This document shows positions 2,195-29,020 of a stretch of DNA of 64,000 bases, piece after piece. The stretch covers positions 5,271,501 through 5,335,500 of the forward strand of contig NZ_JACHIV010000001.1 of NCBI RefSeq assembly GCF_014203325.1. The letters are read 5' to 3'. Both the position numbers and the translations under genes were made by a program. The notes under the pieces are model-generated. The model was not told where the DNA came from. It saw only the letters and a program-made list of their open reading frames with translations, and made no database searches. This DNA is from Saccharopolyspora gloriosae. GTDB lineage: Bacteria; Actinomycetota; Actinomycetes; Mycobacteriales; Pseudonocardiaceae. The stretch's first letter is position 1. The number at the start of each line of letters is the position of its first letter.

Positions 2195-3046
2195 TCACGC
2201 GGCGACGTGCCGGAGTTCGACCAGGTGCGGTTCCTCGGGACCGTCGGGCTCGGTGACCGCCGCGACGGCCCGCTCGGCGCGGCGGGCCAGTTCCCGCCGG
2301 TCGCCGATAGCCGCCGCGTCGAGCTCCGGCAGCACCGACAGCTCCACCACGAGGCCCCGGACGCGGGCGACGGCCAGCACCGACTCCAGCAGCGTGGCCG
2401 CGCCGACGAACGCCGCGGCCGTGGTGGGCGCCCCGGACGCGGTGGTGAACCGCAGCGCCACCGGCCGCACCGCCACGCCCGCGTCCACCGCGGCCTGGAA
2501 CACCGCCGGGCGGTAGGTGCCGGAGGCGAGCCCGCACCACGTGGTGCCTTCGGGGAAGGCCCCGACGACCGATCCCTCCCGCAACGCGCCGGTGACGGTG
2601 CGCACCGCCTCCGGCAGCGCGGACAGGCGGTGCCGGTCGATGTAGAGGGTGCCGACGCGGGCCGCGAGCGGCCCCACGACCGGCCAGGAACGCAGCTCGG
2701 TCTTCGCCAGCAGCCGCATCGGCTGCACCGCCATCAGCGCCACCACGTCCAGCCAGGACACGTGGTTGGTGACCACGAGCCCGCCGTGCGCGGACCGCTC
2801 GCCGCGCACGACGAACCGCACCCCGAACGCCCGCAGCAACGCCCGGAACCAGGACTTCACCAGCGCGGTGCGCAGCCTCCCGCGCAGCACCGCGAGCACG
2901 ACCGCCAGTCCCACGCCGAGCAGCATCAGCGCGACCGCGGCGGTGAGCCGCAGCAGCACCCGGTGGGCGCCCGCGCGGCGCAGGCTCCCCGGCTTCGGCA
3001 GGCAACCCGGCCCGCACGGCGAGACCGGCGACCACGCGTGGATCAT
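2195..3046 (-). CDS. 1-acyl-sn-glycerol-3-phosphate acyltransferase family (PlsC/OlsA-like)
   Basis: Membrane-bound acyltransferase that would esterify a lyso-lipid at the inner membrane. Visible motifs are NHVSWLD (the HX4D catalytic motif), YIDR, and FPEGTTW (phosphate-binding FPEG block). A hydrophobic anchor (LTAAVALMLLGVGLAVVLAVL) precedes them. At 283 residues it has normal family length. The ATG (3046) overlaps the TGA of the upstream GNAT gene by four bases (ATGA), so the two are translationally coupled. In other bacteria this pairing makes ornithine lipids (OlsB makes lyso-ornithine lipid, OlsA acylates it). The OlsA role here is inferred from the neighbour; plain PlsC activity on phospholipid is the alternative. 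Confidence 0.85.
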   Translation of the reverse strand: MIHAWSPVSPCGPGCLPKPGSLRRAGAHRVLLRLTAAVALMLLGVGLAVVLAVLRGRLRTALVKSWFRALLRAFGVRFVVRGERSAHGGLVVTNHVSWLDVVALMAVQPMRLLAKTELRSWPVVGPLAARVGTLYIDRHRLSALPEAVRTVTGALREGSVVGAFPEGTTWCGLASGTYRPAVFQAAVDAGVAVRPVALRFTTASGAPTTAAAFVGAATLLESVLAVARVRGLVVELSVLPELDAAAIGDRRELARRAERAVAAVTEPDGPEEPHLVELRHVAA

Positions 3047-7725: not shown

Positions 7726-7806
7726 CGAAGAACCGCGCAGCAGGCCCCAACACCTGCCTTTGATCTTGCAGTTCCAGGGGGACAGCACTGTCGATCATCG
7801 TCCTGT

Positions 7807-7823
7807 CAGCGGCGAAGCCGCTG
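7807..7823 (-). repeat. 17-nt mini-hairpin accompanying hairpin element copy 1
   Basis: Stem of 7 bp with a 3-nt loop; on the minus strand CAGCGGC-TTC-GCCGCTG. It lies in the same relative place and has the same 17-nt length as the mini-hairpins after the other three elements (16420-16436, 24665-24681, 28795-28811) but a different stem sequence. Confidence 0.7.
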
Positions 7824-7855
7824 AGCAGTGACCAGCTTGAGCAAGTCGACCACCA

Positions 7856-7954
7856 GCGGGTTCTCAGCGGTTTCCTCGCGAGGACAGCTTTTTTCCTCGT
7901 GGCGGAGCCACTTGGAAAAAAGATCCCGCAGCGAGGAAACCGCTGAGGTTCCGC
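7856..7954 (-). repeat. 99-nt covarying hairpin element, copy 1
   Basis: Reads on the minus strand as GCGG-AAC-[17-nt arm]-51-nt interior-[17-nt arm]-AAC-CCGC. The arm is CTCAGCGGTTTCCTCGC and its partner is the exact reverse complement. Inside, CTTTTTTCC pairs with GGAAAAAAG; the other copies have CTTTTTCCC and GGGAAAAAG, a compensatory change. It lies between the convergent ends of degV and hrpA, 42 bases past the hrpA stop, so it could also act as the hrpA terminator. Confidence 0.85.
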
Positions 7955-7996
7955 CACCCGACCCGCCACGCAGGCCGACTTCAAACCCGCGGATTC

Positions 7997-10900
7997 TCAG
8001 CGGGCGGCCTTGTCCAGGGCTCGGTGGATTCGCTTGGCGGAGACCGCGTGCGGGGTGCCCAGGGGCTGCGCGAACAGCGAGACGCGGAACTCCTCGATCA
8101 TCCAGCCGACCTTGAGCAGGTCCTCGCCGGGCGCGCGGCCCTCGGGGACGGCGTCGAGCTGCGCCCGGTAGCGGTCCCGCACCTCGTCGATCTGCGCGAG
8201 CCACTGCCGGTCCCGCTGCGGGTGGTGCTGCACCTTCTCCAGCCGGTGCTCGACGGCGCGCAGGTACCGCTCCACGTCCGGCAACCGGTCCCAGCCGGTT
8301 CCGGCGACGAAACCGGGGTGCAGCAGGCCCGCCAGCTGGTCCTGGACGTCGGCCAGCGACTCCCGCGGCATGGTGCGCTCCCGGTCGGCCAGCGCCGACC
8401 GGGCCTGCTGGGCGGCGGTGAGCACCTTCTCGACCTTGGCGGCGGTGTCGGCGGTGACGGGGCCGAGCCCGGCCCGCACCTTCGCCTCCAGCGCGGCGAA
8501 CCCAGCCTGGCTCCACACCGGTCCGCCGGCGTCGGCGACGAGCTTGTCGACCGCGCACGTCACGCAGTCCTCCAGCAGCCGCGCGACGTCGCCGTGCGGG
8601 CCGGTGCCGAGCACGACGCGGGTGCGCGCGTTCATGCCGCGCTGCAAGGACTTCACGGGTGACGGCAGGTTCAGCAGCAGCAGCCGCCGGGTGCCGTCCC
8701 ACAGCGCGCGGCGCTGCTCGGCCTCGGTGTCGAACATCCGGACCGCGACCGAATCGCCCTCGTCGACCAGCGACGGGTAGGCCTTCACGGCGTTGCCGTC
8801 GCGTTCCTTCTCGAAGGTGCGCGGCAGTTCGCCGAAGCTCCATTCGCTGAGCCCGACGCGTTCCACGGTGTCGGCGGCGGCGGAGATCTCGGCGCGCAAC
8901 TTCGGGCGCAGCCGCTGCTTGAGCTCGTCGAGGTCCTTGGATTCGGCGAGCTTCTTGCCGTCGCCGTCGATCACGCGGAACGACATCGTCAGGTGCTCGG
9001 GCAGCGCGTCCACGTCGAACGAGTCCGGCGGGACGACGACGCCCGTCATGGCGCGCAGCTGTTCGCTCAGCGCGCCCACGAGGTCGCCGCGCATCGCGGG
9101 CATCCGGGACAGCGCCGCGCGCGCGTGGTCGGGCACCGGGACGAAGTTGCGCCGCAACGTCTTCGGCAGCGACTTCAGCAGCGCGATGACGCGTTCTTCG
9201 CGCAGGCCGGGGATCTGCCAGTCGAACCCGGCGGGTTCGATCTGGTTGAGCACCGCCAGCGGGATGTGCGCGGTGACGCCGTCGGCGTCGGAACCCGGCT
9301 CGAACTGGTAGGTCAGCTCCAGCCGGTGGCCGCCCTGCTGCCAGGTGTCCGGGTAGTCGTGGTCGGTGACCCGCGCCGACTCCTGGTTGATGAGCATGGA
9401 CTTCTCGAAGTTGAGCAGCTCCGGCTGCTCGCGGCGGGTCTTCTTCCACCAGGTGTCGAAGTGCCTGCCGGAGACGACTTCGGCGCCGACGCGCTGGTCG
9501 TAGAACTCGAACAGCGTCTCGTCGTCGACGAGGATGTCGCGGCGGCGGGCGCGCTCCTCCAAGTCCTCCACTTCGGCCAGCAGCGCGCGGTTGTCGTGGA
9601 AGAAGCGGTGGTTCGTGTCCCAGTCGCCTTCGACGAGGGCGTGCCGGATGAACAGCTCCCGGCACAGCTCCGGTTCGACCCGGCCGTAGTTGACCTTGCG
9701 CCCGGCGACCAGCGGCACGCCGTAGAGGGTGACCTTCTCGCTGGCCATCACCGCGGCGCGGTTCTTCTCCCAGTGCGGTTCGCTGTAGCTGCGCTTGACC
9801 AGGTGCCCCGCGAGGTCCTCGACCCATTCGGGTTCGATGCGAGCGTTGACCCGCGCCCACAGCCGGGAGGTCTCCACCAGTTCGGCGGACATCACGAACC
9901 GCGGCGGTTTCTTGAACAGCGCCGAACCGGGGAAGATCGCGAACTTGGCGCTGCGCGCGCCGAGGTATTCGGAGGCACCGCGCTGGCGAGGCCCGGCCTT
10001 CTCGGTCTTCTTGTCGGTGTCCTTGAGCCCGATGTGCGAGAGCAGCCCGGCCAGCAGCGACCGGTGCACCCGCTCGGCGTCGGCGGGCCGGTCGTTGATG
10101 GTCATGTCGAGCGACTTCGCCATCTGCCGCAGCTGCGAGTAGAGGTCCTGCCACTCCCGCACCCGCAGGTAGTTGAGGAAGTCCGCCTTGCACTGCTTGC
10201 GGAACTGGTTCGAGGACAGCTCGCCCTTCTGCTCGCGCAGGTGGTTCCACAGGTTCAGCAGCGCCAGGAAGTCCGATTCCTTGTCGCTGAACCGGGCGTG
10301 CTTCTCCCCCGCGGCCTGCTGGTGCTCCGCCGGACGCTCCCGGGGGTCCTGGATGGACAGTCCGGAGGCGATCACGAGGGTCTCGTGCAGGCAGCCGTTG
10401 CGGTCGGCGGCGATCACCATCCGCGCCAGCCGCGGATCGATGGGCAGCTGCGCGAGGGACCGCCCGATCGGGGTGAGCCTGCGGTCGTCGTCCTTGCCGG
10501 ACTCGTCGAGCGCGCCGAGCTCGTGCAGCAGGTTGACGCCGTCGGTGATCTGGCGGCGGTCGGGTGGTTCCAGGAACGGGAACGACGCCACGTCGCCGAG
10601 CCCCAGCGACGTCATCTGCAGGATCACCGAGGCGAGGTTGGTGCGCAGGATCTCCGGGTCGGTGAACTCGGGCCGCGACTCGAAGTCCAGCTCCGAGTAC
10701 AGCCGGATGCAGATGCCCTCCGACACCCGGCCGCAGCGGCCCTTGCGCTGGTTCGCCGACGCCTGCGAGACCGGTTCGATCGGCAGCCGCTGCACCTTCG
10801 TGCGGAAGCTGTAGCGGGAGATGCGCGCCGTGCCGGGGTCGATGACGTACTTAATGCCGGGCACCGTCAGCGAGGTCTCGGCGACGTTCGTGGCCAGCAC

Positions 10901-11950
10901 GATGCGCCTGCCGGTGTGCGGCTGGAACGCGCGGTGCTGCTCGGCCGCCGACAACCGCGCGTAGAGCGGCAGCACCTCGGTGTTGCGCAGCTTCAGCTGG
11001 TTCAGCGCGTCCGCGGTGTCCCGGATCTCCCGCTCACCGCTGAGGAACACCAGGACGTCGCCGGTGCCCTCGGCGCCGAGTTCGTCGACGGCGTCGCAGA
11101 TGGCCTGCGTCTGATCGCGCTCGTTGACGGGCAGGTCCGGGTCCGGCGACTCCTCGACCAGCGGCCGGTAGCGCACCTCGACGGGATAGGTGCGTCCGGA
11201 GACCTCCACGATCGGGGCGTCGTCGAAGTGCCGGGAGAACCGGTCCGGGTCGATCGTCGCCGACGTGATGATCACTTTGAGGTCGGGGCGGCGCGGCAGC
11301 AGCTGCTTGAGGTAGCCGAGCAGGAAGTCGACGTTGAGGCTGCGCTCGTGCGCCTCGTCGATGATCAGCGTGTCGTAGCGGCGCAGCAGCCGGTCGCGCT
11401 GGATCTCGGCGAGCAGGATGCCGTCGGTCATCAGCTTCACCAGCGTCGACTCACCGGCCCGCTCGGTGAACCGCACCTGGTAGCCGACGGCTTCGCCGAG
11501 CTCGGTGCCGAGCTCCTCGGCGACGCGTTCCGCGACGGTGCGGGCGGCGAGCCTGCGCGGCTGGGTGTGCCCGATGACGCCCTGCACGCCGCGGCCCAGC
11601 TCCAGGCACATCTTGGGGATCTGGGTGGTCTTGCCGGAGCCCGTCTCGCCCGCGACGATCACGACCTGGTTGTCCCGGATCGCCGCCAGCAGGTCCTCGC
11701 GGCGCGCGCTGACCGGCAGCTGCTCGGGGTAGCCGATGACCGGGACGGCGGCGCGGCGCTGCTCGACGCGCAGCTCGGCGGCGGCGACGTCGGCGGCGAT
11801 CTCGCCGGTGGCGGACTCCAGCTTCGCGGCGTCCTTGATCTTGCGGGCGCCCTCGATGCGGCGGCGGAGCCTGCGCTGGTCGTTGAACATCAGCTCGGGC
11901 AGGCGGCCGCGCAGGTCGGCCAGCGGGGAGCTCACAGGTGACGTACCCAT
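7997..11950 (-). CDS. hrpA: ATP-dependent RNA helicase HrpA (DEAH/RHA)
   Basis: Very large DEAH-box RNA helicase (about 1317 residues, family norm about 1300), implicated elsewhere in mRNA processing and rescue of stalled ribosomes. Order of domains: RecA1 with Walker A GETGSGKTTQ near residue 100 and DEAHERSLNVDF; SATIDPDRF; RecA2 with the ATNVAETSLTVPGI and QRKGRCGRV motifs; then HA2/OB and the HrpA-specific DUF3418 C-terminal region. ATG 11950 (MGTSPVSSPLADL) is preferred to the in-frame start at 11980; neither has a clear Shine-Dalgarno. Monocistronic. Confidence 0.95.
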   Translation of the reverse strand: MGTSPVSSPLADLRGRLPELMFNDQRRLRRRIEGARKIKDAAKLESATGEIAADVAAAELRVEQRRAAVPVIGYPEQLPVSARREDLLAAIRDNQVVIVAGETGSGKTTQIPKMCLELGRGVQGVIGHTQPRRLAARTVAERVAEELGTELGEAVGYQVRFTERAGESTLVKLMTDGILLAEIQRDRLLRRYDTLIIDEAHERSLNVDFLLGYLKQLLPRRPDLKVIITSATIDPDRFSRHFDDAPIVEVSGRTYPVEVRYRPLVEESPDPDLPVNERDQTQAICDAVDELGAEGTGDVLVFLSGEREIRDTADALNQLKLRNTEVLPLYARLSAAEQHRAFQPHTGRRIVLATNVAETSLTVPGIKYVIDPGTARISRYSFRTKVQRLPIEPVSQASANQRKGRCGRVSEGICIRLYSELDFESRPEFTDPEILRTNLASVILQMTSLGLGDVASFPFLEPPDRRQITDGVNLLHELGALDESGKDDDRRLTPIGRSLAQLPIDPRLARMVIAADRNGCLHETLVIASGLSIQDPRERPAEHQQAAGEKHARFSDKESDFLALLNLWNHLREQKGELSSNQFRKQCKADFLNYLRVREWQDLYSQLRQMAKSLDMTINDRPADAERVHRSLLAGLLSHIGLKDTDKKTEKAGPRQRGASEYLGARSAKFAIFPGSALFKKPPRFVMSAELVETSRLWARVNARIEPEWVEDLAGHLVKRSYSEPHWEKNRAAVMASEKVTLYGVPLVAGRKVNYGRVEPELCRELFIRHALVEGDWDTNHRFFHDNRALLAEVEDLEERARRRDILVDDETLFEFYDQRVGAEVVSGRHFDTWWKKTRREQPELLNFEKSMLINQESARVTDHDYPDTWQQGGHRLELTYQFEPGSDADGVTAHIPLAVLNQIEPAGFDWQIPGLREERVIALLKSLPKTLRRNFVPVPDHARAALSRMPAMRGDLVGALSEQLRAMTGVVVPPDSFDVDALPEHLTMSFRVIDGDGKKLAESKDLDELKQRLRPKLRAEISAAADTVERVGLSEWSFGELPRTFEKERDGNAVKAYPSLVDEGDSVAVRMFDTEAEQRRALWDGTRRLLLLNLPSPVKSLQRGMNARTRVVLGTGPHGDVARLLEDCVTCAVDKLVADAGGPVWSQAGFAALEAKVRAGLGPVTADTAAKVEKVLTAAQQARSALADRERTMPRESLADVQDQLAGLLHPGFVAGTGWDRLPDVERYLRAVEHRLEKVQHHPQRDRQWLAQIDEVRDRYRAQLDAVPEGRAPGEDLLKVGWMIEEFRVSLFAQPLGTPHAVSAKRIHRALDKAAR

Positions 11951-12365
11951 ACTTCGTTCCAGGATAGAGAACCGCGCCACGAGGACGCCGCTGATTTTCG
12001 GCCGACGGGCGTGCTGCTCGCCGGCCGCGGGCGGGTGCGCGGCAGGCCTGGTGACCGGTCACCAGGTGCCCGGCACCTCAACACCGGTGGGCACCCGCGC
12101 ATTCCGGTCGCACCGCGAACCGGAGCGCGGCGCGACCGCACGAGCAGGAAGCCTACAAACCACCCGCGCCCACGCCCCGCCGGACCTGCGCGGCAGCGGA
12201 CGTCGCCCGACCGCGCGGGACGGCCCGCGCGGTCGGGCAGCGGCACCTCACGGCCAGGTCGCGAACTCCGTCGTTCCAGGTGAGCAGCGTTCTCCGCCGC
12301 GCCTCGGCGACCGGTTCGAGCAGCACGACCACCGGGCGGTCGACCGCCCCTGGGGGGACGAACGC
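11951..12365. other. Gene-free gap with an 18-bp palindrome
   Basis: 415 bases between the hrpA start and the phosphatase stop. A perfect palindrome CTGGTGACCGGTCACCAG (12048-12065) is followed directly by GGTGC-CCG-GCACC (12065-12077), about 100 nt upstream of hrpA. This could be an operator for hrpA. No credible gene is seen; open frames here have no recognisable protein. Confidence 0.4.
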
Positions 12366-16129: not shown

Positions 16130-16295
16130 GCTCTCGGGTTGGCGTGGGGTGTCGGGTTGTGGAGCCGGGTTCGGCTTGGCGTGTGGCGTCGGGTTTGAGA
16201 GCCTTCCCCGGTTTGGGCGTGTGGTTGCTGTGGTGCGGTGGAAGGTCGGCTTTAGGGATTGCTTCCACGGCTCGTTTTGCTTTGGTGTCCGGGTA
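16130..16295 (+). other. Left flank of hairpin element copy 2
   Basis: Non-coding. Bases 16270-16302 (GCTCGTTTTGCTTTGGTG then CGGGTAGCGGAACC) are nearly repeated before copy 3 (24517-24548), so the mobile or duplicated unit extends about 25 nt to the left of the hairpin. Confidence 0.5.
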
Positions 16296-16394
16296 GCGGA
16301 ACCTCAGCTGTCTTCTCGCTGCGGGATCTTTTTCCCGAGTGGCTCCGCCACGAGGGAAAAAGCTGTCCTCGCGAGAAGACAGCTGAGAACCCGC
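16296..16394 (+). repeat. 99-nt covarying hairpin element, copy 2
   Basis: GCGG-AAC outer stem and internal loop, arm CTCAGCTGTCTTCTCGC (16303-16319), 51-nt interior, exact complementary arm (16371-16387), AAC-CCGC. The interior contains CTTTTTCCC ... GTGGC-TCC-GCCAC ... GGGAAAAAG, a second hairpin. Downstream of the TPR-like gene and convergent with glgP. It could act as a terminator, but the variable arms suggest more. Confidence 0.9.
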
Positions 16395-16419
16395 GGGTGG
16401 TCGGCTTTTCGACGTGGGC

Positions 16420-16436
16420 TATTCGCTGCGCGAATA
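16420..16436 (+). repeat. 17-nt mini-hairpin after copy 2
   Basis: TATTCGC-TGC-GCGAATA, 7-bp stem and 3-nt loop, 32 nt after the large hairpin. Identical to the one after copy 4; copy 3 has TATGTGC-TTC-GCACATA, a compensatory variant. Confidence 0.8.
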
Positions 16437-16438
16437 CA

Positions 16439-16800
16439 GGCACGGCCTTCGGCCGCCAGGCAGGCTTGCTCCGCAGCCCAAGGCACGGCTACGCCGCAAA
16501 GGCACGGCCTCCGGCCGCAAAGCAAGCGTGGCTTCGCCCGCCCAAGGCACGGCTACGCCGCAAAGGCACGGCCTTCGGCCGCAAAGCAAGCGTGGCTTCG
16601 CCCGCCCAAGGCACGGCTACGCCGCAAAGGCACGGCCTTCGGCCGCAAAGCAAGCGTGGCTTCGCCCGCCCAAGGCACGGCTACGCCGCAAAGGCACGGC
16701 CTTCGGCCGCAAAGCAAGCGTGGCTTCGCCCGCCCAAGGCACGGCTACGCCGCAAAGGCACGGCCTTCGGCCGCAAAGCAAGCGTGGCTTCGCCCGTCGT
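16439..16800 (+). repeat. Tandem array, 64-bp period, of small hairpins
   Basis: The unit begins GGCACGGCCTTCGGCCGC at 16501, 16565, 16629, 16693 and 16757, exactly 64 bp apart, after a diverged 62-bp unit at 16439. Each unit holds three mini-hairpins with 3-nt loops: GGCC-TTC-GGCC, GGC-TTC-GCC and CGGC-TAC-GCCG. Units are almost identical, implying recent amplification. Because 64 is not a multiple of three and there are no unique spacers, it is neither a coding repeat nor CRISPR. Confidence 0.9.
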
Positions 16801-23608: not shown

Positions 23609-23725
23609 GTGCGCGTTCGGCCGCAAGGGATACGCGACACCACTACTGAGATCGTCGACACTGACGATCGGCGGGAACGCGGGATAGCCTCCGGGCAAGC
23701 GGCAGTTCGACGAGGAGGTTGCGGC

Positions 23726-24508
23726 GTGGGTGAGTTCGTCAGGCTCGACGTGGAAGGCGCCATCGGCACGATCAGGTTGGAACGGCCGCCGATGAACGCG
23801 CTGAACCGGCAGATCGAGCAGGAGCTGAAAGCCGTGGCGGCGGAGGCGGCCGAACGCCCCGACGTGCGCGCGGTGATCGTCTACGGCGGCGAGAAGGTCT
23901 TCGCGGCCGGCGCCGATATCAAGGAAATGGCCGACATGTCCTACTCGGACATGGCCGCCAAGGAGGAGAACGGCCTCACCGCAGCGATGAGCGCCGTCGC
24001 CGCGATCCCGAAGCCGACCGTCGCCGCCATCACCGGCTACGCCCTCGGCGGCGGATTCGAACTCGCGTTGAGCTGCGACCGCCGCATCATCGGCGACACC
24101 ACCAAGGTCGGTCAGCCGGAAGTCCTGCTCGGCGTGATCCCCGGAGCCGGCGGCACCCAGCGCCTCGCCCGGCTCGTCGGGCCCAGCAAGGCCAAGGACA
24201 TCATCTTCTCCGGCCGGTTCGTCAAAGCCCCCGAAGCCCTGGAACTGGGCCTCGTCGACGAGGTCGTGGCGGCCGACGAGGTGTACGCGGCGGCCCGCAA
24301 GTGGGCCGAGCAGTTCGCCAACGGCCCGGCGCGCGCGCTCGCGGCGGCGAAGGCCGCGATCGACGGCGGCCTCGACATGGACCTCGACAACGGCCTGCGC
24401 CTGGAGACGCAGATCTTCGCCGGCCTCTTCGCCACCGAGGACCAGAAGATCGGCATGCGCTCGTTCATCGAAAACGGCCCGGGCAAGGCTGAGTTCACCG
24501 GGCGGTAG
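23726..24508 (+). CDS. Enoyl-CoA hydratase/isomerase
   Basis: Crotonase-fold enzyme of 260 residues, probably hydrating 2-enoyl-CoA in fatty-acid beta-oxidation. Oxyanion-hole segments are visible: AAGADIKEMADM and ALGGGFELALSCDRRI. Catalytic Glu candidates lie in VGQPEVLLGVIPGAGGTQRLARLVG, the block of true hydratases with two acidic residues. GTG 23726 (MGEFVRLDVEG) is preceded by GAGGAGG at 7 nt. It works with acyl-CoA dehydrogenases that feed EtfAB. Confidence 0.92.
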   Translation: MGEFVRLDVEGAIGTIRLERPPMNALNRQIEQELKAVAAEAAERPDVRAVIVYGGEKVFAAGADIKEMADMSYSDMAAKEENGLTAAMSAVAAIPKPTVAAITGYALGGGFELALSCDRRIIGDTTKVGQPEVLLGVIPGAGGTQRLARLVGPSKAKDIIFSGRFVKAPEALELGLVDEVVAADEVYAAARKWAEQFANGPARALAAAKAAIDGGLDMDLDNGLRLETQIFAGLFATEDQKIGMRSFIENGPGKAEFTGR

Positions 24509-24541
24509 GTGCTGGGCTCGTTCTGCTTTGGTGGTCGGGTA

Positions 24542-24640
24542 GCGGAACCTCAGCGTTCTTCTCGCTGCGGGATCTTTTTCCCAAGTGGCTCCGCCACGAG
24601 GGAAAAAGCTGTCCTCGCGAGAAGAACGCTGAGAACCCGC
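24542..24640 (+). repeat. 99-nt covarying hairpin element, copy 3
   Basis: Arm CTCAGCGTTCTTCTCGC (24549-24565) pairs exactly with 24617-24633. The interior is as in copy 2 except CCCAAGTGGC for CCCGAGTGGC, a change outside the paired core. It begins 33 nt after the enoyl-CoA hydratase stop, in the same direction. Confidence 0.9.
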
Positions 24641-24664: not shown

Positions 24665-24850
24665 TATGTGCTTCGCACATACAGGCACGGCCTGCGGCCG
24701 CAAGGCAGGCTTGCTTCGCCGCCCAGAGCACGGCTTCGCCGCAAAGCACGGCCTACGGCCGCAAGGCAGGCAGGGCTTCGCCCGCCCTACTGCACGGCCT
24801 CGCCGCAGAGGCACGGCCTTCGGGCGCGAGGCTGGTGGGCTTGGCCTTGC
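24665..24850 (+). repeat. Mini-hairpin string after copy 3 (diverged relative of the 64-bp array)
   Basis: Starts with TATGTGC-TTC-GCACATA (24665-24681), then GGCC-TGC-GGCC, CGGC-TTC-GCCG, GGCC-TAC-GGCC, GGGC-TTC-GCCC and others, mostly with 3-nt loops. The order resembles the 16439 array but spacing and sequence have drifted. Confidence 0.7.
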
Positions 24851-27646: not shown

Positions 27647-28615
27647 CTACGGCCGAGGGAGCCCCGGCCAGGCGCGTTCCGCGAGGCCCCTGGCGAACTC
27701 GCACGCGTCCAGCCCGGTGCCATCGGGGTACGCCACGACGATCATCGCCACCTCGACCTGGCCGCCGCCCGGTTCGCCGAACGGGAGGTGCCCCGTCTCC
27801 GCCGAGCACAACGGGGTTCTCGGGTCGCCGCCGACGACGCTGGTCACCGTGCGGCGACCCGCGATCGACTCCTCCACCGCCGACCCGTGCAGCACGGCAG
27901 GCGGATCACCCGCGGTGTGCACCAACCGCACCCGCGGCGACGCGGCGTCCTGCTGCCCCCACTGGCACTGGTGGCCCGCCGGGGAACCCTCCGGCTCGGC
28001 CTCCTCCAGGCCCGGTACCTCGCGCACCACCTCGGTGCCGAGCACCCGGCACGGGTCACTCAACGCCAGCGAATTCGGCGGGTACGGGCGGTGGCGCACC
28101 TGGTGCCGCCCGATCGCGGCGACGACGTCACCCGCCCCCGCCTCCGCCAGCCCGCACAGCGCGGCACCCGGCGCACCATCGAGCTGATCGGCGCTGACCA
28201 GCAAGGAATTGCCGTCACCGAACAGGACCCGCCGCGTGCAATGCCCCGGCAACGGCGCCTCCCGCGCGATCCGGAACGCGCCCGCGCCGACCACCGGATC
28301 GGCCTGCCGCGGAGCTTCCCGCGCGAGTTCGCCGACCTTCAGCTGCGCCAGCGCGCCCTCCGCCATCCGGACCCGGAACAAGCAGTAGTCCAACGAGACC
28401 GTGCCCGCGTCGCGCGCCTCGCCGAACTTCGCCAACGACGCGGGATCGATCAGCGAACACGGATCGACCGTGCGCGGATCACCGAGAGCCCCGGTCACCG
28501 ACGCGGACTCGCGGTCCGACACGGGTTCCGGACGCTGCTGCGCGACACCGCTGCAACCGACGGCCCACAGCAGCAACGACACCAGCACCACCGGCAGACC
28601 AAGAAAACGCGGCAT
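27647..28615 (-). CDS. DUF3558-type lipoprotein
   Basis: 322-residue exported lipoprotein. The signal MPRFLGLPVVLVSLLLWAVGC ends in a lipobox Cys at residue 21. Two repeats with the DUF3558 signature are visible: VDPCSLIDPASLAKFG and, later, LSDPCRVLGTEVV, each followed by further Cys residues likely to pair. This family is typical of Pseudonocardiales and mycobacteria and its role is unknown. A second member lies at 33812-34774. Confidence 0.82.
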   Translation of the reverse strand: MPRFLGLPVVLVSLLLWAVGCSGVAQQRPEPVSDRESASVTGALGDPRTVDPCSLIDPASLAKFGEARDAGTVSLDYCLFRVRMAEGALAQLKVGELAREAPRQADPVVGAGAFRIAREAPLPGHCTRRVLFGDGNSLLVSADQLDGAPGAALCGLAEAGAGDVVAAIGRHQVRHRPYPPNSLALSDPCRVLGTEVVREVPGLEEAEPEGSPAGHQCQWGQQDAASPRVRLVHTAGDPPAVLHGSAVEESIAGRRTVTSVVGGDPRTPLCSAETGHLPFGEPGGGQVEVAMIVVAYPDGTGLDACEFARGLAERAWPGLPRP

Positions 28616-28670
28616 CGCCCCAGACTAACTTTGTTCGGGGTGGGGGTCGTTTTGCCCGGGGGGGTGGGTG

Positions 28671-28769
28671 GCGGAACCTCAGTCGGTCTCTCGCTGCGGG
28701 ATCTTTTTCCCGAGTGGCTCCGCCACGAGGGAAAAAGCTGTCCTCGCGAGAGACCGACTGAGAACCCGC
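28671..28769 (+). repeat. 99-nt covarying hairpin element, copy 4
   Basis: Arm CTCAGTCGGTCTCTCGC (28678-28694) pairs exactly with 28746-28762. The 51-nt interior is identical to copy 2. It lies in the gap upstream of the DUF3558 gene and is antisense to both flanking genes, so a terminator role for those genes does not fit this copy. Confidence 0.9.
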
Positions 28770-28794: not shown

Positions 28795-29020
28795 TATTCG
28801 CTGCGCGAATACAGGCACGGCCTTCGGCCGCCAGGCAGGCTTGCTTCGCCGCCCAAGGCACGGCTACGCCGCAAAGGCACGGCTACGCCCGCCCAAAGCA
28901 CGGCTACGCCGCAAAGGCACGGCCTCCGGCCGCAAAGCAGGCGTGGCTTCGCCCGCCCAAAGCACGGCTACGCCGCGAAGCACGGCCTCCGGCCGCGAGG
29001 CAGGCTTAACTTCGCCCGCA
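28795..29020 (+). repeat. Mini-hairpin string after copy 4
   Basis: TATTCGC-TGC-GCGAATA (28795-28811), then units with GGCC-TTC-GGCC, CGGC-TAC-GCCG, GGCC-TCC-GGCC and GGC-TTC-GCC. The units are those of the 16439 array in partly scrambled order. 29021-29158 beyond it is featureless. Confidence 0.8.

Follow-up and report, generated by a model that had tools for sequence, protein, structure and literature searches.

A dispersed hairpin repeat of the Pseudonocardiaceae with covarying stems

The REP and REPIN sequences that go with TnpA-REP (RAYT) are, like the element described here, high-copy palindromes, and according to the available parts of two sources the enzyme acts on them in the form of folded single strands of DNA, and they are thought to be non-autonomous (PMC8266576, PMC3116915). 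The present element likewise is a high-copy extragenic palindrome folded as one strand, with the reservation that the strand asymmetry is weak or absent in the clade of the genome studied. It differs from REPs in size, these being 20–40 bp in the accessible part of a survey (PMC3733652) against a 99-nt hairpin plus a second small hairpin (H2), and in that the REP/RAYT system has a Y1 transposase, whereas none was found in the carriers G000–G003 (Saccharopolyspora gloriosae and three congeners). Bacterial MITEs such as QMITE2, SPRITE and BOX resemble the element in being short and intergenic, with transcripts that would form stable stem-loops, as far as the available portion of a review describes them (PMC10969869). 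Another trait of MITEs, that of a short non-coding repeat missing from orthologous sites of sister species, is also found here; in contrast to MITEs, the arms vary with compensation instead of being fixed as transposase-binding repeats, and neither a matching insertion sequence (in a scan of seven contigs) nor a target duplication (the flanks being diverged) was found. The structured RNAs of Rfam have in common with the element conserved internal loops, covarying stems and one sense strand, whereas the element has no credible Rfam match in the stretches tested and reaches hundreds of copies in one genome. ERIC, RUP and Correia elements are imperfect palindromes of about 100–150 bp in many copies, with other sequences and in other phyla, and we know of no strand-specific wobble in them. 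Among the titles and abstract beginnings listed from open literature there was no report of the element, and the carrier genera searched for are absent from the available parts of the palindromic-repeat survey (PMC3733652) and of the MITE review (PMC10969869).

Anatomy of the unit and covariation of its stems

The window is a stretch of 64,000 nucleotides from S. gloriosae, positions 5,271,501–5,335,500 of a genome (G000) assembled in one contig of 6,825,909 bp. An earlier note had described four 99-nt copies of a hairpin in it, and their positions and strands are confirmed by the sequence and by one common predicted structure for all four (−65.5 to −69.4 kcal/mol by RNA folding; Table 1). The arms CGGTTTCC, CTGTCTTC, CGTTCTTC and TCGGTCTC each face a perfect complement, and the inner stem covaries as the note had stated. 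Its claim that the opposite arm is the perfect complement in every copy is true of these four and does not extend genome-wide, since the outer 17 bp are fully Watson–Crick in 52 of the 73 distinct copies kept from G000–G003. The proposal of a selected secondary structure is well supported: in 22 distinct copies the covariation score was 0.181 against a shuffled mean of 0.060, and none of 500 shuffles reached it. In a set of 48 minus-strand copies both sides had changed in 20 of 37 pairs, and paired cells made up 95.6%, against 36.5–46.0% when the partner was slid, with none of 500 shuffles as high on any measure.

Table 1. Copies of the repeat, their parts and their neighbours in the window
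Feature	Position	Strand	Remark	Basis
H2 of copy 1, type B (TCAGCGGCTTCGCCGCTGA)	7806..7824	-		sequence and aligned flanks
Hairpin H1 of copy 1, 99 nt	7856..7954	-	42 nt past stop of HrpA-like helicase gene	
Left flank module of copy 1	7955..7981	-		sequence and aligned flanks
HrpA-like helicase gene, upstream of copy 1	7997..11980	-		
Left flank module of copy 2	16269..16295	+	near-copy consensus ..cgg.tcg.ttTgctt.GGtGGtCGGGTg	aligned flanks, 85 near copies
Hairpin H1 of copy 2, 99 nt	16296..16394	+	wobbles in other species point to minus as folding strand	
H1–H2 linker of copy 2	16395..16419	+	GGTGGTC-type motif, matches left flank	aligned flanks
H2 of copy 2, type A (TATTCGC-TGC-GCGAATA)	16420..16436	+		sequence and aligned flanks
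Array of CACGGC..GCCGC palindromes, 3' of type A tail of copy 2	16438..16796	+	5.6 units of 64 bp	
Enoyl-CoA hydratase gene, upstream of copy 3	23609..24508			
Left flank module of copy 3	24515..24541	+	6 nt past stop of enoyl-CoA hydratase gene	
Hairpin H1 of copy 3, 99 nt	24542..24640	+		
H2 of copy 3, type A (TATGTGC-TTC-GCACATA)	24665..24681	+		sequence and aligned flanks
Array of CACGGC..GCCGC palindromes after a type A tail	24685..24846			
Gene whose start adjoins copy 4	27647..28615	-		
Left flank module of copy 4	28644..28670	+		
Hairpin H1 of copy 4, 99 nt	28671..28769	+	exception: adjoins a gene start	
H2 of copy 4, type A	28795..28811	+		sequence and aligned flanks
Array of CACGGC..GCCGC palindromes after a type A tail	28849..29019			

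The stretch discussed in the note ends at 16436 and so takes in H2 of the second copy, which belongs to the element; what escaped the note is that the hairpin lies within a larger unit and that wobble pairs point to the opposite strand. With approximate boundaries, this unit measures about 170–190 bp. A left module of 22–27 nt comes first, then H1, an imperfect hairpin of 99 nt, and after it a linker of about 25 nt and H2, the two stretches beside H1 being conserved flanks. On the minus strand, the aligned copies keep GCGGGTTCTCAG-N8-TCGCGAGGACAGC ... GATCCCGCAGCGA-N8-CTGAGGTTCCGC, and compensated variation is seen in the arm, in the inner stem and in the apical stem-loop. The parts that stay fixed across genera are for the most part the GUU/GUU loop on the outside and, in the internal loop, the blocks GAGGACAGC / GATCCC. 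The image of labels on a constant core fits one recent expansion and fails across genera, where inner stem and apical loop vary too. In 38 of 123 named copies one more base lies between arm and core, a variant that is common in S. soli and S. elongata (e.g. L172, L184, L189).

Flanks, gene contexts, the consensus fold and one alignment of the copies were taken from the 176 copies kept of 217 pattern candidates, a set in which the one-base-longer variant is under-represented. An inverted repeat of at least 6 bp follows H1 as H2 in 156 of 187 copies, a count made without a chance control, and in the clade of the window it is mainly TATnnGC..GCnnATA (type A) or TCAGCGGC..GCCGCTGA (type B). The flank motifs on the two sides of H1 resemble each other and change in concert: at the other loci, a set that takes in some copies of Saccharopolyspora sp. 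NFXS83 (very probably the strain of G001), GGTGC stood on both sides in 67 of 102 copies and a GGTC-type motif on both sides in 15, with 4 discordant and 16 not classifiable (Fisher p = 6e-13, uncorrected for relatedness). H2 matches free of H1 numbered four in four contigs (1.2 Mb), all in G002; two of them are interpreted as degenerate relatives of H1, one as a copy with an internal deletion and one as a chance match.

Copies at five loci (L012, L028, L029, L054, L185) are chimeric, with two arms or ends of different types, a sign of recombination between copies. Arrays of CACGGC..GCCGC palindromes with a unit of about 61–64 bp follow the three type A tails of the window and look like a second repeat family attached to the element. 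The element itself was rejected as a tandem repeat, tandem arrays only following the type A tail, and as a tRNA, the single tRNA of the window (2389–2479) being unrelated. In the foot of an integron attC site RYYYAAC pairs with GTTRRRY. An attC identity was rejected as well: both ends of the element carry AAC on the same strand, and these stay unpaired in the fold.

Distribution, placement and turnover

A pattern of 5' arm and core, in which eight positions were left free, had 236 exact matches in G000 (6.83 Mb) and its reversed control none, and a chance origin of the window copies is therefore excluded. Matches to a pattern spanning both arms numbered 153 in G000, and those to the 3' core, two mismatches being allowed, 264 in G000, 65 in G001, 132 in G002 and 30 in G003, where the count for a draft genome (G001: 65) may be low. 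The near-exact core was absent from two further congeners, G004 and G005, and from 54 other genomes. Within the Pseudonocardiaceae, a covariance model made from 23 copies had matches in 38 of 150 genomes, G004 and G005 included, and in 13 of 46 genera, with at most 27 candidates scored per genome. The note's suspicion of a dispersed family is borne out: the four window copies are members of a dispersed repeat family of these soil actinobacteria. A second model, made from 48 diverse copies, was run on 394 genomes of the class under strict filters and with at most 10 candidates scored per genome; it matched 2, both of them Pseudonocardiaceae, and none outside that family. Among the matches listed, carriers are many species of Saccharopolyspora, S. 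spinosa being one of those named, as well as Amycolatopsis, Saccharomonospora sp. CUA-673, Pseudonocardia sp. CNS-004, Prauserella aidingensis and Sciscionella sediminilitoris. The note had not recognised the family, and no Rfam family fits either: no match in the window exceeded the gathering threshold, and none below it was credible in the stretches tested, from the window and from seven relatives. At the L103/L104 boundary of the draft G001, the element at L104:907–1005 is followed by a run of N, either an assembly gap or a masked stretch.

Copies prefer the 3' ends of genes. The contexts of 174 classifiable copies were codirectional in 91, convergent in 64 and divergent in 19, against 582, 230 and 203 gene pairs, respectively, in the same loci. 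Among the codirectional copies, the strand on which the note had read the element was sense behind the upstream gene in 65 and antisense in 26 (p = 5e-5). Behind genes of the same direction H1 starts at a median of about 40 nt past the stop codon, and the unit therefore begins within about 20 nt of it. The neighbouring genes come from a crude ORF finder based on GC content, and ORFs of this finder that were overlapped by a copy (31 of 192 distinct copies) were excluded as neighbours. By hand count, 65 of 100 listed G000 copies run with the replication fork (dnaA at 6.47 Mb, terminus assumed opposite; p = 0.0035); since genes share a similar bias, 185 of 292 predicted genes in 400 kb being codirectional with the fork, we have not used this as evidence.

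The check for empty sites in sister strains that the earlier note had proposed gave a positive answer at the level of sister species. Many G000 copies face element-free orthologous gaps in G002, G003, G005 and one contig of G001, with 0–147 bp between the anchors in 18 comparisons, and the flanks at these sites are too diverged for a target-site duplication to be read. In 16 chosen gaps with a copy in two to four species, no two species had the same 5' arm, although a neighbouring protein is 98% identical between G000 and G001; 5 of the 16 included a copy in opposite orientation, and some copies were degenerate. Arms are thus exchanged in whole blocks, whether through conversion from other copies, through a fresh insertion at the site, or through both.

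The strand that folds

A one-sided change of a G-C or A-T pair can leave a G-U pair on the plus strand or a G-U pair on the minus strand (C-A on plus), and the two outcomes can be counted. A first count over the outer arms of 103 copies gave 123 minus-strand wobbles, 10 plus-strand wobbles and 20 other mismatches, and 119 against 6 when 16 NFXS83 copies were set aside; taken per species or genome (n = 43, again without NFXS83), minus wobbles were in excess in 34, plus wobbles in 1, and 8 were ties. Of the named set, with its 124 pattern matches, this count had left out 40, nearly all of them the one-base-longer variant, which was out of register. A recount over 16 pairs therefore chose the register for each copy, a choice that favours pairing and neither strand, and covered 123 of the 124 matches, one being cut by the end of its locus. 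In 102 copies from 24 named species other than NFXS83, wobbles of the minus kind numbered 123 and those of the plus kind 12 (p = 2e-24, the copies not being independent), beside 32 other mismatches; the minus excess was present in 24 of 24 species, and 17 of the 102 copies were fully Watson–Crick.

In the clade of the window the bias is weak or absent, with 15 minus against 8 plus wobbles in G000–G003 and 4 against 7 in NFXS83, and neither the inner stem (14 against 9) nor the apical stem (3 against 5) has a clear minus excess. The consensus fold of 99 copies, some of them from NFXS83, is more stable on the minus strand, at −56.9 against −34.6 for the plus strand. The conserved AAC/AAC loop of the strand as read becomes GUU/GUU on the minus strand and can there pair as G-U, U-U and U-G. 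Since the wobbles outside the clade of the window are mostly minus-strand G-U, it seems that one strand, opposite to the one read in the earlier note, is selected to fold as RNA or single-stranded DNA. The tolerance of G-U leans towards RNA, that is, a transcript of the minus strand, as the folded molecule. The main alternative to strand selection behind the asymmetry is a mutational strand bias; read-through from the upstream gene would be expected to raise C-to-T changes on the plus strand and thereby to give the opposite wobble bias.

Explanations for the repeat

We regard it as somewhat probable that the element is a REP- or MITE-like non-autonomous repeat of the Pseudonocardiaceae that is recognised as a folded single strand. 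A trans-acting enzyme would recognise the folded single strand reading GCGGGTTCTCAG...CTGAGGTTCCGC, only copies that fold would keep multiplying or be kept, and copies would settle at the least harmful places, just behind stop codons. It counts against such a mobile element that no mobilising gene was found, whether a Y1 gene in G000–G003 or a reverse transcriptase in G000, and that transposition was not seen. A more specific proposal, which we put forward tentatively and hold to be doubtful, is that of a family-wide mobile structured RNA of about 170–190 nt with two hairpins, made from the strand antisense to most upstream genes. The enzyme that spreads it would recognise it as RNA or ssDNA and would belong neither to the Y1 transposases nor to the reverse transcriptases. 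The whole hairpin, both arms and core, would be swapped between sites, and orthologous sites of close species would therefore rarely share arms.

A structured RNA or 3'-end element useful to the host, acting in mRNA end protection, termination or regulation and multiplied behind genes for its usefulness, is possible though rather unlikely. The preference for gene 3' ends suits this explanation, as does the report, in the available part of its source, that antisense transcription in S. erythraea is enriched at the 3' ends of genes (PMC3610266). So does the copy behind gatB, where the element is scarce and change has been gradual. Two genomes of genus g56 (G122 and G095), with one detected copy each, differ there in 4 of 100 positions of H1, which make up exactly two compensated pairs; this genus is probably Prauserella, as its genome G173 matches the P. 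aidingensis record over 1,290 nt. Identity is 93–95% in the upstream gene and 91% in both flanking modules, and falls to 38–50% over the 150 nt that follow on the right. Since the modules are so much more alike than the adjoining 150 nt, the unit itself looks constrained at gatB, as judged from these alignments. A copy stands behind gatB also in the Saccharopolyspora genome G003, and behind benB in two genera, and genomes with one detected copy keep the structure (L169/L171), which suits a host role as well. Against this, a third genome of genus g56 has three pairs at the same gatB site that are neither Watson–Crick nor wobble, presence varies strongly among close species, and the neighbouring genes are diverse. 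In most copies between codirectional genes, moreover, the folding strand runs antisense to the gene upstream and therefore is not its 3' UTR.

The earlier note had thought of a RAYT or IS200-type enzyme. A system of the REP/RAYT or IS200/IS605 type, with single-stranded DNA hairpins moved by a Y1 (HUH) transposase, would account for the high copy number, the extragenic palindromes and the folding of one strand, and the two hairpins with their flanking motifs resemble left and right ends; it is nevertheless improbable, the Y1_Tnp profile (PF01797) having matched 5 of 14 known genomes as a control and none of the four with the near-exact element (G000–G003), so that the idea is not supported for this clade. 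Y1 genes are present in G004 and G005, but a model scan of the 3-kb loci around them (L059–L061) found no element. A short ORF, interpreted as a TnpB-like zinc finger, adjoins the Y1 frame of L061, and the locus is read as an ordinary IS200/IS605 remnant without the repeat. The IS91/Y2 profile PF04986 matched none of 13 genomes, yet the control genomes gave no match either. A half-element scan of seven contigs (about 1.57 Mb) gave no split or autonomous relative, its matches being normal copies read in reverse, copies that had diverged or lost internal sequence, and chance hits.

Covariation could also stem from the DNA itself, with template switching or cruciform repair copying one arm onto the other and no selection on structure. 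Such a mechanism has been published for hairpins, in the part of the source available (PMC8794818), and it would suit both the predominance of perfect palindromes among the copies kept from G000–G003 and the arms that differ as whole blocks at orthologous sites. We judge it quite improbable, as template switching yields Watson–Crick arms, whereas G-U pairs are in 10:1 excess on one strand, and as the GUU/GUU and GAGGACAGC/GATCCC loops have stayed unpaired instead of being repaired. A SINE-like spread of RNA by reverse transcription is very improbable: the fold is RNA-like and reverse transcriptase genes (RVT_1, PF00078) occur in 4 of 13 genomes searched (G001, G017, G080, G138), but the domain had no match in the other 9, among them G002, G003 and G000, the genome richest in copies, and neither a poly-A tail nor 5' truncation was noticed in the copies.

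The preferred reading thus remains that of a non-autonomous repeat recognised as a folded single strand. Dispersed palindromes of bacteria are often explained by RAYT/IS200 enzymes. The present element resembles such a system in copy number and, for most carriers, in its single-strand signature, yet does so in genomes where a RAYT/IS200 enzyme was not found, and the factor that mobilises or maintains it may therefore be missing from the list of known ones. Counting strand-specific wobbles is a cheap test of the folding strand for any palindromic repeat. In S. spinosa, a producer of antibiotic and insecticide, stable hairpins behind many genes could shape the ends of mRNAs.
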